Of a stretch of 46,725 bases of DNA, positions 37,855 to 46,725 are shown in pieces. The position numbers were made by a program, and so were the translations under genes. The notes under the pieces were generated by a model that saw nothing but the letters and a program-made list of their open reading frames with translations, made no database searches and was not told the DNA's origin. How positions within the stretch are numbered: position 1 is the stretch's first letter; every line of letters begins with the position of its first letter. Origin of the DNA: an uncultured Chthoniobacterales bacterium (GTDB lineage: Bacteria; Verrucomicrobiota; Verrucomicrobiia; Chthoniobacterales; CALDSX01); assembly GCA_937924445.1 (NCBI GenBank), contig CALDSX010000109.1, positions 1-46,725 of the forward strand, in the 5' to 3' direction.

Positions 37855-39858
37855 ATGCTCGCTGTTTCGCAATTAAGCAAAACCTTTGCCGGACGCGAAC
37901 TTTTTCGGGATGTCTCCTTCCAGATTCATGCGGGAGACCGGATTGGACTCATCGGCCGGAATGGAGCCGGCAAAACCACACTCTTTTCCCTCATCCTCGG
38001 AGATGAAATTCCCGACTCTGGGACGGTCGAACTGCAACGCGGCGTCACAGTTGGCTACCTGCGTCAGGAATCCGCCCCAACAGGGGGTGAGACGATTCTC
38101 GAACTTGCCATGTCAGTCTCTCGAGAAATGGCAACCTGCCTCGCCACAATTCGACTGCACCCCGACGAAACAACCCCAGAGCATATCGCCGCCCACGAGC
38201 GGTTCTCCGAACTCGACGGTTATGAACTCCGCACCAAGGCCAAGCGCATTCTGGCAGGATTGGCTTTCCACGCTTCCGATCATGACAAACCTGCCTCTAC
38301 CCTCAGTGGCGGATGGGTCATGCGCGCCCATCTGGCCCGCCTTCTGGTCATGGAGCCGGATTTGCTCATGCTCGACGAACCGACCAACCATCTCGATCTC
38401 GAATCACTCGGCTGGTTTCAAAATCATCTCCGAAACTATCTTGGTGCTATTCTTGCCATCTCCCACGACCGAGCCTTCCTGAACAATATCTGCGATGGTA
38501 TTTTTGAAATCTCTCGTCGCAGACTCTACCGCTACCACGGTAACTACGACGCCTATCTCGAACAGCGCGCCACACGAGAAAAACAATATCGGACAGCCTA
38601 CGAAAATCAGCAACGCGAAATAGCCCACCTCAAAGCCTTCGTCGATCGCTTTCGCGCCAAGGCCAGCAAGGCATCCCAAGCTCAGGAAAGGCTCAAACGT
38701 CTCGAACGCATCGAGCGATTGGACCCACCCGATCCCCCTGAGGTTACACTCGACTTTCGCTTTCCAAAACCCGCCCGCTCCACCCGCGTGACGATTGCTT
38801 TGGAAAAAATACGGCAAGCTTACGGCGATCATGTCGTCTATCAAAACCTCTCTCTCGAAATAGAGCGTGGCGAACGAATCGTCCTCGTCGGCCCCAACGG
38901 TGCCGGAAAATCGACGCTTCTTAAAATCCTTGCCGGTTTGCTTCCCTTCGAGGCGGGTCGGCGTCTCCCAGGGCCAAACACGTCTGTCGGTTATTTTGCT
39001 CAAAACCGAACCGACATACTCGACATCCGCAACACTGTTCTCGCGGAAGCTCTCAATAGTAACCGCGTTCTCACCGAACAGGAAGTGCGCTCTCTCCTCG
39101 GCGCATTTCTCTTCCCAGGCGATGATGTCTATAAAAATGTCGGGATCCTCAGCGGAGGCGAAAAAAGCCGTCTCGCCCTGGTCAAGTTATTACTCGATCC
39201 TCCAAATCTGCTTCTGCTCGACGAACCGACCACTCACCTCGATATGCCAAGCATTGATGCCCTCATCCGGGCGCTTCACACCTACGAAGGGACAATCGTC
39301 TTCGTCAGCCACGACGTCTACTTTATCCGCGCCATCGCCCAGAAGGTTATTCATATCAACGCGGGCAATCTAACCATCTACGCCGGAGATTTCGACTATT
39401 ACCTCGAAAAATCCGGTGCCACTTCGGCCACAGCCGGACTCGTTGCAACCTGCGCCGACAACGCCCTGTTACGCCCCTCCGACAAACGTCCCCCTCGTCC
39501 CATAATTCCTGAGAACCAAATCCCCGACAGATCCGGACGATCACTGCGGCAAATCAAAGAACAAAAGCGGGCCGAAGCCGAAGCTCGCAGGGCGGCCAGC
39601 CGGGTCCGGCGAGAAAAAGAACAGCGCCTGGCCGAGCTTGAAGCCGAAATTACCGAACTCGAACAGCTTCAAAATGAGCTCGCTGCAAAACTCGAAAATC
39701 GTGCCACCTACGAAAACCCTGCGGAAGCCCTTGAGATTAATCGCCAGCTTGCCGGCGTCGCCAACTCCCTTTCTCGCGCTAATTCAGAATGGGAAATTGC
39801 AGCCACCGAACTTGCAAATTTCGCTTCCGACGACAAAACCTTTAATCTTGAGATTTAA
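37855..39858 (+). CDS. ABC-F family ATP-binding protein
   Basis: A 667-residue soluble protein with two tandem ATPase domains, no membrane domain. Domain 1 has GRNGAGKTT, LSGGWVMRAHLARLL and LLMLDEPTNHLDLES; domain 2 has GPNGAGKST, LSGGEKSRLALVKLL and LLLLDEPTTHLD. Between them is the interdomain linker of ABC-F factors (QREIAHLKAFVDRFRAKASK, QAQERLKRLERIE). The C-terminus is a charged coiled coil (KEQKRAEAEARRAASRVRRE). ABC-F proteins act on the ribosome, in translation control or antibiotic protection. The gene begins 99 bases after the ssb terminator. It belongs to the Uup/EttA-like group by linker and tail; a specific role is not resolved. Confidence 0.92.
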   Translation: MLAVSQLSKTFAGRELFRDVSFQIHAGDRIGLIGRNGAGKTTLFSLILGDEIPDSGTVELQRGVTVGYLRQESAPTGGETILELAMSVSREMATCLATIRLHPDETTPEHIAAHERFSELDGYELRTKAKRILAGLAFHASDHDKPASTLSGGWVMRAHLARLLVMEPDLLMLDEPTNHLDLESLGWFQNHLRNYLGAILAISHDRAFLNNICDGIFEISRRRLYRYHGNYDAYLEQRATREKQYRTAYENQQREIAHLKAFVDRFRAKASKASQAQERLKRLERIERLDPPDPPEVTLDFRFPKPARSTRVTIALEKIRQAYGDHVVYQNLSLEIERGERIVLVGPNGAGKSTLLKILAGLLPFEAGRRLPGPNTSVGYFAQNRTDILDIRNTVLAEALNSNRVLTEQEVRSLLGAFLFPGDDVYKNVGILSGGEKSRLALVKLLLDPPNLLLLDEPTTHLDMPSIDALIRALHTYEGTIVFVSHDVYFIRAIAQKVIHINAGNLTIYAGDFDYYLEKSGATSATAGLVATCADNALLRPSDKRPPRPIIPENQIPDRSGRSLRQIKEQKRAEAEARRAASRVRREKEQRLAELEAEITELEQLQNELAAKLENRATYENPAEALEINRQLAGVANSLSRANSEWEIAATELANFASDDKTFNLEI

Positions 39859-39953
39859 CACCTCAACACCTTTCGATCGACTCTGCAACGCCTCTGTGAG
39901 ATCCTCGCTTGCACTTGCGCTCTGTGCTTTTGCGACGAATAATCCTCAAATCC

Positions 39954-41066
39954 ATGGAACCCGACGTCCAGCCATCCTCTTCACTCGCTCCCGGCAACAC
40001 TCGCAAACCCCACGGCCTAATGAAGGACTGCGAACCTTTAGATAAAATTAAAAACTTTATCCTTCAACAGCCTTCGCTTGTCATGGCCGTCGCAACAGTC
40101 CTCATCTGCCTGATAATTCTTTTGACAGTGGTGCCCTATTCAAGCGGTTACGGAGGCACTCTTCTCCCTCTCCTGCCCATGATGATGAGGATCTGGTCCG
40201 CTCCAGAATATGCCGATTGGCAACACGGTCTGCTTGTCCCCTTTATCGTTGCCGCATTGCTCTGGTGGAAAAGAGCGGAGATTTTTACCGAGAGACCGGC
40301 CCCGTCCAAGAGCGGCCTCCTTATCCTTATCCCATCGCTGGCAGCTTACTGGTTCGGCGCACGGGCCGAGCTCACCTTCCTCGGCTTCCTTTCCGTTCAT
40401 GCCATTCTGCTTGGCATGATCATCTGGCTGTTTGGATGGCGGGTGTTAGGTAAGCTGCTTTTCCCGCTCATCTTTCTAGGGTTCACCTGGCCGCTTGTTT
40501 TTCTTAACGAAATAATTGCCGTTCCGTTGCGTCACCTGATGGCTGGTATTAGCGCAACAGCACTAAATCTACTCGGCGTCGCAACGCTTCGCGTTGGTAC
40601 AAGCCTTCGCTCAATGGGTGATCCCACTGCCGGAATTCCCGACGGACATCTCTTTGCTCTCGACGTCGCCGACCCTTGCAGCGGTATCCGCTCCCTTTTT
40701 GCCCTGCTGATGGTCAGTGCACTTTACGGCTACGCCACCCTACCAAAATGGTGGCAGCGCATTGCTCTTTTCTTTGCGGGCATTCCTTTAGCGGTTTTTG
40801 GTAATTTCGTCCGGATGATGCTTCTTACTTTCGGCACAATATGGTTTGGGTCAGCATTTGCCGTTGGAGAATTTGAAAAGCCCTCCGCATATCACATGGC
40901 GGCTGGCTATGCGGTCTTCGTCGCAGCCATCGGTGGGATGGTTGCTTTCGGTTGGTTGCTCAGCAGAAATTGGGCGGTATTTCTGGAAAACCTGCGCATG
41001 GAGGAAGAGGCGCTTTCAGAAAAATCCCCCCCTTCCGATACCAAGACGCGCGAAGACGAGTACTGA
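39954..41066 (+). CDS. Exosortase (EpsH/Xrt family)
   Basis: A 370-residue polytopic protein of the exosortase family, the presumed sorting transpeptidase for PEP-CTERM-type proteins. The catalytic triad is visible: Cys242 in ADPCSGIRSLFALL, Arg287 in FGNFVRMMLL and His314 in SAYHMAAGYAVF. The fold has about eight to ten helices, and WPLVFLNEIIAVPLRH is the conserved middle region. ATG 39954 is preferred to the TTG at 39909. No substrate with a PEP-CTERM tail was recognised in this window, so the targets are elsewhere. Exosortases are common in Verrucomicrobiota that make exopolysaccharide. Confidence 0.88.
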   Translation: MEPDVQPSSSLAPGNTRKPHGLMKDCEPLDKIKNFILQQPSLVMAVATVLICLIILLTVVPYSSGYGGTLLPLLPMMMRIWSAPEYADWQHGLLVPFIVAALLWWKRAEIFTERPAPSKSGLLILIPSLAAYWFGARAELTFLGFLSVHAILLGMIIWLFGWRVLGKLLFPLIFLGFTWPLVFLNEIIAVPLRHLMAGISATALNLLGVATLRVGTSLRSMGDPTAGIPDGHLFALDVADPCSGIRSLFALLMVSALYGYATLPKWWQRIALFFAGIPLAVFGNFVRMMLLTFGTIWFGSAFAVGEFEKPSAYHMAAGYAVFVAAIGGMVAFGWLLSRNWAVFLENLRMEEEALSEKSPPSDTKTREDEY

Positions 41067-44130: not shown

Positions 44131-46410
44131 CTAGAATTCATCATAGGCAATCTGATATGGCGAAACACCAAGGTCAGAGAGCATTTGATTGCAAGCCTTT
44201 ATCATCATCGGCGGGCCGCAGAGATAGTATTCAGCAGCACGCGGGCTCGGATGAGATTTGAGGTAATTTTCGAAAACTACCTGATGGATAAACCCGGTTT
44301 TCCCATTCCAATTATCCTCAGGCAGAGGATCGGAAAGAGCGGGATAAAATCTGAAATTTTTATTTTCGCTCTCTAATTTTTCGAAATATTCTGTGTAATA
44401 AAGCTCCTGTCTAGAGCGTGCTCCGTACCAATAGCTGACCTTGCGGGAGGTTTTTTCTGTTTCAAAAAGGTGAGACAAGTGGGCGCGTAATGGTGCCATT
44501 CCGGCACCGCCACCAATGTAAATCATCTCCTTTTGGGTCGGCTTGATGTGAAAATCTCCGAATGGGCCAATCGCGGTGACGATATCTCCCGGCCGCAAGC
44601 TGAAGACGTAGGCTGAGCCGACACCCGGTGGGCAGTCCTGACCAGGCGGCGGGGTGGCGATTCGCACGTTAAAGCGCAGCGTTCTTTCGATTTTCGGATT
44701 ACTAGCCAGGGAATAATTGTTTCGTCGTCCCGCGGACTCCTGGTTTCGGGAAACAAGATCGAAAACGTGTTGCCTTTCCCAAACTGTGCGAAACGGTTCA
44801 GGAATGTCAAAGTCACGGAAAAAGATTTTGTCATACTCAGGTATATCGAGCTGCATGTAATCTCCCGGTGTAAAGTCAATCACCTCATTTGGATCAACAG
44901 GCTCCAGAACCAATTCTTTGATGAAAGTGGCAACGGACCGGTTGGAAACAACTCGAAGGGTGTAGTTTTTTTGGCTGCGGGCCCCGCATCCAGCAGCAAG
45001 AATGACATTGAGCCAGAGTCGTCCACCTACTTCTTTGATTGGATAAGTTGCTAATCCACGGCAAATAGGTGCTCGGGCGGGGGAGCCATCTTTAAGGTAA
45101 AAACGCCCGTTATGTTTTGGGCACTCAATAATGCCGTCTTTAACCAAGCCGTCAGCAAGATGTGTGTTCCCGTGCGTGCAGATCCCGTCGGTGGCGTAGA
45201 GGTCTCCTTTTTCGTCCCGGATCAGCGCGAAGGTTTTCTTTCCGTAATCAAAACGCAAGACGTCAGCTAAGCCAAGATCAGCAGCGGCGCATATTTCCAA
45301 CCAACCTTCGTCATCGGGCTTGCCAATTCCCTTGAGAGGGGAAGTTGTCGCGGTTTTTGACGGTTTTGGAAGTCGGCGTTTGACATGATACGCAGGATCC
45401 TTGATCTGCCGAAGAAGAGCAGGTATGATTTCTTTCCATGCGGAGAGAATTGAGGGATAAGGTGGCGGACAGTCATGCTTAATCAACTCATGCAACTTGG
45501 GAAGGTTGTGGTAAGGCACGAGCGGAAACATGTGATGCTCCAAGTGGTAATTCATGTTCCAGTAGATGAAGCGGCTGACAGAATTCATGTAGACCGTTCG
45601 ACAATTAAGCCGGTGGTCGAGAACATTTTCAGCCAATCCGGCATGCTGGGTTGTATTGTGAACAATCATTACCCAGGTGCCGAAGAAATGGGGAAGGATA
45701 AAAAGAAAGATCGGAAGCCACGACTTCATCACCAAGGCTGTCGCAATAATGATCAAATAGACAGAAAGAACGATCCGGGCTTTGCGAAAGAGTTTAGGAA
45801 ATTCAGTTTCTGGGATGAATGTGCGTTCAGCTTCGGTGACTTTACCCAAAGCGTGTTTTATGAGGTTAATGTAATAGTACCTGTAACCATCAATGTTGAA
45901 AATGTTTCGCACCAGCGCCGCAAGGTCGGGAGGGCGAGGAACCTGAATTTCAGGGTCGCGACCGACAATAATCGTATCGCTGTGATGACGCACATGGCTC
46001 CAGCGCCAGACGACGGACTCGCGCATGACCATGAAGCAGGCTAATTCATACACCCAGCGGTTTAGCCAATCGGTTTTGAAGGCTGTTCCGTGTCCGCACT
46101 CGTGCCAGCGGGAATCCGAGGCGGTGGCGTAGAAAACCGCATAAATGAGGTAGGGAATTGCAGCCCACCAAGAAGGCCAGAGCCAAACGGTCGCCCCACC
46201 CGTTACCGCTAAAATACCAAACCAAATAATGGTGTCCCGCAAGGCAGGGCCGTCTTTTCGAACCAACAGCTTGCGTAATTCTGCACGTGGGACTGGTGTT
46301 TGATACCATTCCGCTTCGGCAAGTCCTTTTTCAACCGCCACCTGCGCGTTTTCTCCGGTCAAACTGTAATCGATGCGGTTTTTTGATGCTGCTAAAGAGA
46401 CCTCGGCCAT
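44131..46410 (-). CDS. Desaturase-Rieske-NADH reductase fusion (MocDEF-like)
   Basis: A 759-residue fusion of three redox modules. Residues about 50-335 are a membrane fatty-acid-desaturase-type domain with the three histidine boxes HECGHG (103), HVRHHS (139) and HLEHHMFP (289), in the MocD-like subgroup (NTTQHAGLAENVLDHRLNCR). Residues about 365-470 are a Rieske [2Fe-2S] domain with CTH (411-413) and CPKH (430-433). Residues about 480-759 are an FAD/NAD(H) reductase like NqrF: NNYSLAS (FAD), GPFGDFHIK, GGGAGMAPLRAH, YLCGPPMM, and a C-terminal YDEF like that of NqrF. NADH electrons could pass FAD, Rieske, di-iron site in one chain. ATG 46410 is preferred to TTG 46446. The stop TAG uses the IS630 target TA. 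The substrate is unknown: an acyl chain or small methylated compound. Confidence 0.88.
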   Translation of the reverse strand: MAEVSLAASKNRIDYSLTGENAQVAVEKGLAEAEWYQTPVPRAELRKLLVRKDGPALRDTIIWFGILAVTGGATVWLWPSWWAAIPYLIYAVFYATASDSRWHECGHGTAFKTDWLNRWVYELACFMVMRESVVWRWSHVRHHSDTIIVGRDPEIQVPRPPDLAALVRNIFNIDGYRYYYINLIKHALGKVTEAERTFIPETEFPKLFRKARIVLSVYLIIIATALVMKSWLPIFLFILPHFFGTWVMIVHNTTQHAGLAENVLDHRLNCRTVYMNSVSRFIYWNMNYHLEHHMFPLVPYHNLPKLHELIKHDCPPPYPSILSAWKEIIPALLRQIKDPAYHVKRRLPKPSKTATTSPLKGIGKPDDEGWLEICAAADLGLADVLRFDYGKKTFALIRDEKGDLYATDGICTHGNTHLADGLVKDGIIECPKHNGRFYLKDGSPARAPICRGLATYPIKEVGGRLWLNVILAAGCGARSQKNYTLRVVSNRSVATFIKELVLEPVDPNEVIDFTPGDYMQLDIPEYDKIFFRDFDIPEPFRTVWERQHVFDLVSRNQESAGRRNNYSLASNPKIERTLRFNVRIATPPPGQDCPPGVGSAYVFSLRPGDIVTAIGPFGDFHIKPTQKEMIYIGGGAGMAPLRAHLSHLFETEKTSRKVSYWYGARSRQELYYTEYFEKLESENKNFRFYPALSDPLPEDNWNGKTGFIHQVVFENYLKSHPSPRAAEYYLCGPPMMIKACNQMLSDLGVSPYQIAYDEF

Positions 46411-46541
46411 AAGAGCAAATGCAGTTGTTTTTTCTGGGGTCGGCAAGCTTTGTGTGAGACGAGACGAAATTTTTATAACCTATATTTGTAACTGCTCAGG
46501 TAGTCGCACCATGGGAGCATCAGTAACCGAAGAATAGACTA

Positions 46542-46552
46542 CCCCCCCCCCC
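46542..46552 (+). repeat. Poly-C tract of 11 in a gene-free interval
   Basis: The 209-base interval 46411-46619 between the fusion gene and the DUF4338-type gene contains no recognised gene. It holds an 11-C homopolymer at 46542-46552, with another G run (6) at 46594-46599. Runs of this length are slippage-prone in bacteria. They can also mark assembly joins. No promoter match strong enough to report was found in this interval. Confidence 0.55.
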
Positions 46553-46619
46553 GAACGCAACAGAAAAAAGTTCGTTTTTTGCTGAATTCACCAGGGGGGC
46601 CTGCCGTTTCTTGCTCGCC

Positions 46620-46725
46620 ATGACAAGCGTCTTGGTGATGCAAGGGCGACAGTTGAGCGGCGCGGACATCGCTTCGATCCGGGGGCTGCTGGACGAACAT
46701 CCCGAGTGGTGTCGCTCGCGCCTGA
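46620..46725 (+). CDS. DUF4338/DruA-family protein, N-terminus only
   Basis: Only the first 35 codons lie in the window. MQGRQLSGADIASIRGLLDE followed by HPEWCRSRL matches the N-terminal pattern of DUF4338 proteins (GRELSxxDLxxIRxLIxxHPxWSRxRLS), often named DruA-like after the Druantia anti-phage system. Most single DUF4338 genes look like stand-alone mobile genes rather than full Druantia systems. No druBCDE genes are visible, but the window ends here. The start at ATG 46620 follows the G run without a clear Shine-Dalgarno; the ATG at 46638 is an alternative. Confidence 0.55.
   Translation, partial: MTSVLVMQGRQLSGADIASIRGLLDEHPEWCRSRL

Follow-up and report, generated by a model that had tools for sequence, protein, structure and literature searches.

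The last gene on a 46,725-base contig from an uncultured Chthoniobacterales bacterium raises the question of whether a desaturase-type oxygenase, a Rieske protein, and an NqrF-like reductase can be encoded as one chain, and what such a chain might do. The stretch of DNA that was analyzed, referred to here as the window, is this entire contig. On its minus strand, positions 44131–46410 hold a single uninterrupted frame of 759 codons that begins with an ATG at 46410 and has a stop codon ending at 44131; an in-frame TTG upstream (46446) is an alternative start that would give 771 codons. The probability of 758 open codons arising by chance at the local composition is ~6e-16. The preliminary description had read the product as these three modules in one chain, and Pfam, NCBIfam, and PDB sequence searches concur in placing all three in the 759-residue protein. 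A set of two or more separate genes, or an assembly artifact, is ruled out because of wide conservation: 68 distinct homologs, 52–73% identical to the window protein, align with it over the full length and come from many independent assemblies, isolates included. At the sequence level, the fusion is confirmed as a real, intact, and conserved gene.

The N-terminal module (residues 79–321; 45448–46176, minus strand, as are all features of the gene given below) matches the Pfam FA_desaturase family PF00487 with an E-value of 4.4e-37 and 128.7 bits, against a cut-off of 29.7. It carries three histidine boxes, H103-E-C-G-H107 (HxxxH; 46090–46104), H139-V-R-H142-H143 (HxxHH; 45982–45996), and H289-L-E-H292-H293 (HxxHH; 45532–45546), all of whose histidines are invariant in the 62 aligned full-length homologs on which ligand conservation was scored. 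The structure model predicts long helices of the membrane type at residues 53–77, 81–107, and 201–228, among others. Both hallmarks of the class III di-iron membrane fatty-acid-desaturase superfamily are present, the three boxes on the one hand and the Pfam match with long helices on the other. The Rieske [2Fe-2S] module follows at residues 370–457 (45040–45303; PF00355, 6.5e-17, above the cut-off), and its cluster ligands, C411-x-H413 and C430-x2-H433 (45112–45180), are likewise invariant in the 62 homologs. Its best structural matches in Foldseek are the Rieske ferredoxins 5bok (TMt 0.94) and 1vck. Pfam detects no mononuclear-iron catalytic domain of the kind found in the alpha subunits of Rieske non-heme iron oxygenases, and the catalytic part of the chain is the desaturase.

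The C-terminal module (residues 481–759; 44134–44970) corresponds to positions 128–403 of the NCBIfam nqrF model TIGR01941 (1e-105, 354 bits against a cut-off of 295) and lacks positions 1–127. Its 279 residues share ~48% identity with the FAD domains of solved NqrF structures; a PDB sequence search matches it to 7qu3 (6.9e-91), and its model superposes on the solved NqrF 7qu5 with a TMt of 0.95. In Pfam, NAD_binding_1 is found at residues 632–741 (8e-19, above the cut-off), and the match to FAD_binding_6 falls slightly under the cut-off. Both NAD motifs are present, G633xGxGMAP640 and C731GP; the first, GGGAGMAP at 633–640 (44491–44514), is invariant at G633, G635, G637, M638, and P640 in the 62 homologs. 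Histidine boxes, Rieske ligands, and FAD/NAD motifs had all been described as intact, which holds for each of these except the FAD motif. The RxYS signature, FRAYS in NqrF, is RRNNYS in the window protein (44710–44727), with Asn at the position of the canonical Arg. NNYS belongs to the clade of the window protein, early-branching fusions retain RNYS, and canonical NqrF from the same phylum has FRAYS. Since the membrane anchor of NqrF and its own [2Fe-2S] domain are absent from the chain, the Rieske module occupies the place of the NqrF iron-sulfur domain. The C-terminal part alone passes the NCBI nqrF equivalog cut-off, so that automatic annotation may label such proteins NqrF and hide the oxygenase.

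Structure prediction yielded a whole-chain model with a pLDDT of 80.8 and a pTM of 0.67, and a model of the desaturase-Rieske half (residues 1–470) with values of 85.7 and 0.82. Among the best 50 Foldseek matches of this half by E-value, most were Rieske ferredoxins, and neither AlkB nor stearoyl-CoA desaturase appeared. The Rieske and NqrF modules are joined by a short linker of ~11 to 23 residues, depending on the domain boundary chosen, and 48 residues (322–369) separate the desaturase from the Rieske module. In the AlkB-AlkG fusion, oxygenase and reductase bind the same face of AlkG (PMC10113152), so that the donor must shuttle between its partners. By analogy, the 48-residue stretch may allow shuttling of the Rieske module.

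The order of the modules recalls the rhizopine genes mocD, mocE, and mocF, with which the preliminary description considered them colinear. Bahar et al. reportedly described rhizopine catabolism by MocD/MocE/MocF in 1998, including a demethylation step. The comparison bears out the first two modules: the desaturase is 55–58% identical to rhizobial MocD, and the Rieske module ~50% identical to rhizobial MocE, the latter scoring 106.7 bits over residues 370–468 with the MocE_fam_FeS model (TIGR02377), below the cut-off of 136.15 and the 184 bits of rhizobial MocE. It fails for the third. The rhizobial operons examined, which stand in for the original rhizopine mocF sequence, have at the mocF position a gene for a BphA4-type flavoprotein (Pyr_redox_2 plus Reductase_C in Pfam) of a different family from NqrF. 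The match of module order to mocDEF is for this reason functional rather than homologous in its last element; judged by sequence, the desaturase and Rieske modules have MocD and MocE as their homologs, and the third is an analogous replacement of MocF. On Rhizobium pRL11, genes for a desaturase, a MocE-type ferredoxin, and an FAD-dependent oxidoreductase are adjacent, with a LacI regulator and a TIM-barrel gene nearby. The MocD/MocE/MocF ferredoxin oxygenase complex thus resembles the fusion in its desaturase and Rieske components and in the nearby TIM-barrel gene, and differs from it in having three separate genes and a reductase that is not NqrF-like. The mocDEF genes participate in the catabolism of rhizopine (3-O-methyl-scyllo-inosamine), which induces their promoter (PMC10107442), and in Pseudomonas syringae mocDEF adjoins a xylA-type gene (PMC5132102).

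In a tree of the desaturase module, the fusions form one group (98/100) with rhizobial MocD as the adjoining sister clade, and the NqrF modules of the fusions likewise form a group of their own, apart from the NqrF proteins of Verrucomicrobiota. Desaturase and Rieske genes are separate in rhizobia and at one Verrucomicrobiota locus, L172, and three other loci (L166, L167, and L170) encode desaturase-Rieske chains without a reductase. The unfused MocD/MocE pair of L172 falls inside the fusion clade of the desaturase tree with weak support (88/32) and is possibly a split fusion. This pair (L172:3185-8074) has a URO-D gene on one side and a GH120-type gene on the other. The two-module chains at L167:3693-5971 and L166:3834-5246 show 38–40% identity, and an overlapping TIM-barrel gene directly follows that of L167. 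The simplest reading of these sequences is a single main origin of the fusion, followed by spread between phyla. Carriers occur in Verrucomicrobiota, Bacteroidota, Acidobacteriota, Gemmatimonadota, and Ignavibacteriota; those of Bacteroidota include isolates of Winogradskyella, Tamlana, Polaribacter, Flavicella, and Mucilaginibacter. The carriers in Acidobacteriota, Gemmatimonadota, and Ignavibacteriota are metagenome-assembled genomes (MAGs) and a Verminephrobacter draft holds one truncated copy on a 3.1 kb contig; some MAG occurrences and this short contig may reflect binning or contamination error. The full fused chain is absent from all 332 plasmid records having a match. Mapping of the architecture across Verrucomicrobiota, as had been suggested, found it in 28 of the 388 genomes sampled.

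The genes that surround the fusion in other genomes are largely those of carbohydrate metabolism. Across various genomes they include alpha-L-rhamnosidases (GH78/GH106), alpha-L-fucosidases (GH29), aldose epimerases, GFO/IDH dehydrogenases, rhamnogalacturonan lyases (PL11), sulfatases, KduI, SDR proteins, and SusC-like receptors, as well as aldo-keto reductase, creatininase-type, and kinase genes. In 60 distinct fusion loci, RhaT was found near the fusion in five and a URO-D (MtaA-like) gene in eight, and an AraC-type regulator lay within 8 kb in ~25 (20 and 5 with two reference sequences, which possibly overlap). Of the families seen near the fusion, random control regions of the same genomes, comprising 110 genes, gave at least two matches only for TonB plug domains and SDRs and in no case for GH78, GH106, GH29, RhaT, aldose epimerase, GFO/IDH, PL11, or sulfatases, in a coarse comparison based on the 25 commonest families.

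The most regular companion is a protein of the family designated c9, encoded directly downstream on the same strand at 14 of the 60 loci. In the 388-genome sample, c9 is present in nine genomes, eight of which also hold the fusion, and eight of its ten copies lie directly behind the fusion; the probability of this co-occurrence by chance is 2e-9 when genomes are treated as independent, which they are not. Some immediate downstream proteins, certain c9 members among them, show a weak Pfam match to a xylose-isomerase-like TIM barrel, and the label extends to c9 only through these members. Searches with phmmer and NCBIfam assigned no family to the downstream c9 and c47 proteins. At six of the 60 loci, a protein of ~285 residues is encoded directly behind the fusion (e.g., L026:10252-11106 and L040:10310-11158); the L026 copy has no match in Pfam, NCBIfam, or the PDB, and where checked a 3-hydroxyisobutyrate-dehydrogenase-like gene comes next.

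Methyl-transfer genes accompany the fusion at two loci in particular. At L059 (6764-16366), genes for RhaT and an FGGY kinase lie upstream of the fusion, and those for DUF1638, RACo, a B12 corrinoid protein, and MtaB follow it; the cluster also includes a URO-D/MtaA-like gene. Similar genes (URO-D/MtaA-like, corrinoid protein, RACo) surround the fusion at L025 (4509-10515) in a different order. It is possible that both are joint loci for oxygen-dependent and cobalamin-dependent methyl removal. One Akkermansiaceae MAG, CAIXKE01, has distinct fusion genes at three loci (L025, L034, and L064), each in a neighborhood of its own, which suggests several substrates; the variation of sugar enzymes from locus to locus likewise indicates that several may exist.

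Taken as a family, these proteins are best read as self-contained, NADH-driven membrane di-iron monooxygenases that oxidatively O-demethylate a methylated sugar or cyclitol, a reading to which we assign a probability of roughly 0.55. The redox chain and a carbohydrate substrate are its likely parts, and demethylation is the part that we infer. An O-methyl sugar or cyclitol is proposed because of the MocDEF precedent, the deoxysugar and methyl-transfer genes near the fusion, and the precedent of a sugar-demethylating P450 discussed below; the displaced RxYS Arg of the window clade and the variation of sugar enzymes among loci count against the reading as a whole. A bolder version, in which one fusion of MocD/MocE with a captured NqrF half gave rise to a widespread, horizontally spread group of NADH-self-sufficient di-iron oxygenases that O-demethylate methyl-rhamnose or methyl-fucose, with reaction and electron-supply architecture both undescribed, is tentative and stands at less than even odds.

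The families to which the modules belong suggest a path from NADH through FAD, the Rieske cluster, and the di-iron center to O2. NADH would bind the C-terminal NqrF-type flavoprotein module and reduce its FAD, which would pass electrons one at a time to the Rieske [2Fe-2S] cluster as a substitute for the [2Fe-2S] domain of NqrF itself. The Rieske module would then dock at the cytoplasmic face of the N-terminal three-His-box module, in the membrane topology presumed here, and reduce the di-iron site for O2 activation. Hydroxylation of the O-methyl group of a sugar or cyclitol would give a hemiacetal, which would yield formaldehyde and the free sugar. No formaldehyde-oxidizing gene was recognized as a constant neighbor of the fusion, a further point against this reading. 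Enzymes encoded alongside in other genomes, among them the TIM-barrel isomerase, an aldo-keto reductase, and a kinase, might then act on the freed sugar.

Whether the window copy serves this purpose is a separate matter, since its own context is silent: it has no operon partner or adjacent sugar gene in the window, the genome contains no c9 homolog at the threshold used, and a repeat lies alongside. Its function would be that of the family. The repeat (46540–46725, no strand assigned) occupies the right end of the contig ~100 bp from the gene and outside the enzyme. It is one of 40 matches, most of them 92–99% identical, in a 2.58 Mb genome, and nearly all copies lie at contig ends, so that a very high-copy element breaks this assembly. 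We take its reading frame (MTSVLVMQGR..LDEHPEWCRSRL) to resemble the start of DruA/DUF4338 proteins. Pfam gave no match for a 92-residue piece of another copy, nor for suspected transposase remnants on either side. That the gene is a passenger in this genome, brought by mobile DNA without operon partners and perhaps unexpressed or unused, agrees with the proximity of this repeat, with a GC content of 49.4% compared with 53.0% for the rest, and with the missing c9 and sugar neighbors. It is nevertheless somewhat unlikely given the intact frame, the retention of every ligand residue, and several GH78-type rhamnosidases encoded elsewhere in the genome, and it is compatible with the reading of the family as O-demethylases. 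Elsewhere in the window, positions 39909–41066 and 37855–39858 hold an exosortase gene (TIGR02602, above the cut-off) that adjoins an ABC-F protein, and the latter exceeds the NCBI cut-off for ribosomal-protection-like ABC-F proteins.

The same redox chain could instead hydroxylate or dehydrogenate a carbohydrate or cyclitol away from an O-methyl group. The carbohydrate context would suit this, most loci lack a direct methyl marker, and the putative c9 TIM barrel and the aldo-keto reductase, creatininase-type, and SDR neighbors could process an oxidized sugar; the methyl-ether precedent of MocDEF and the URO-D, MtaB, and corrinoid neighbors favor methyl chemistry and make this alternative unlikely. 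A lipid enzyme, i.e., a fatty-acid or sterol-type desaturase or hydroxylase with its own electron donors, is quite improbable in spite of the Pfam family of its catalytic module and its membrane-enzyme fold, as its nearest unfused relatives are MocD proteins, the NCBIfam DesB desaturase model gives 32 bits against a cut-off of 500, and the recurring neighbors are sugar genes, with no lipid genes recurring among them. A carbohydrate or cyclitol methyl ether is a more likely substrate than a fatty acid. Despite a score above the nqrF equivalog cut-off, a respiratory, Na+-NQR-related variant of NqrF with extra domains is strongly disfavored, and NqrF proper ruled out, by the missing model positions 1–127 with the N-terminal helix and [2Fe-2S] domain of full-length subunit F, by the separate clades of fusions and same-phylum NqrF, and by the nqrF profile, whose sole match in the genome is the fusion itself.

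As a proposed O-demethylase of this architecture, the fusion can be set beside several known systems. With respect to NqrF of Na+-NQR, it shares the FAD domain of the C-terminus, and it has a desaturase and a Rieske module in place of the anchor and [2Fe-2S] domain, and NNYS in place of RxYS. A 2022 review, citing a review of 2001, stated that a ferredoxin-fused desaturase had never been found (PMC8918992). The present family provides a conserved counter-example, whose electron donors are a Rieske module and a flavoprotein half derived from a sodium-pump subunit, and no description of a desaturase-Rieske-NqrF fusion was found in the literature searched, which covered few subscription papers. 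Its novelty is limited by the three-domain alkane monooxygenase Fd-FdR-AlkB, a self-sufficient enzyme already reported to be active (PMC8918992). Both combine a membrane di-iron oxygenase, a reductase, and an iron-sulfur donor in one chain; in Fd-FdR-AlkB, the ferredoxin and ferredoxin reductase are N-terminal and the substrate is a hydrocarbon (PMC8918992), whereas the donors of the fusion are C-terminal and its catalytic module groups with MocD. One-chain enzymes are attractive for biocatalysis, and the proposal is testable because some, at least, of the named isolates in the family should be cultivable. If correct, sugar demethylation by these enzymes would account for the removal of methyl ethers from plant and algal sugars by Verrucomicrobiota and Bacteroidota that specialize in sugars, a process for which the literature searched yielded only a P450 route. 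In that route, a P450 of marine Flavobacteriia oxidatively demethylates 6-O-methyl-D-galactose with ferredoxin partners (PMC10033563). The two systems would share O2- and NADH-dependent demethylation of a methoxy sugar by way of a ferredoxin and a reductase (PMC10033563), and they differ in that the P450 is a heme enzyme with separate partners and an unrelated catalytic fold.
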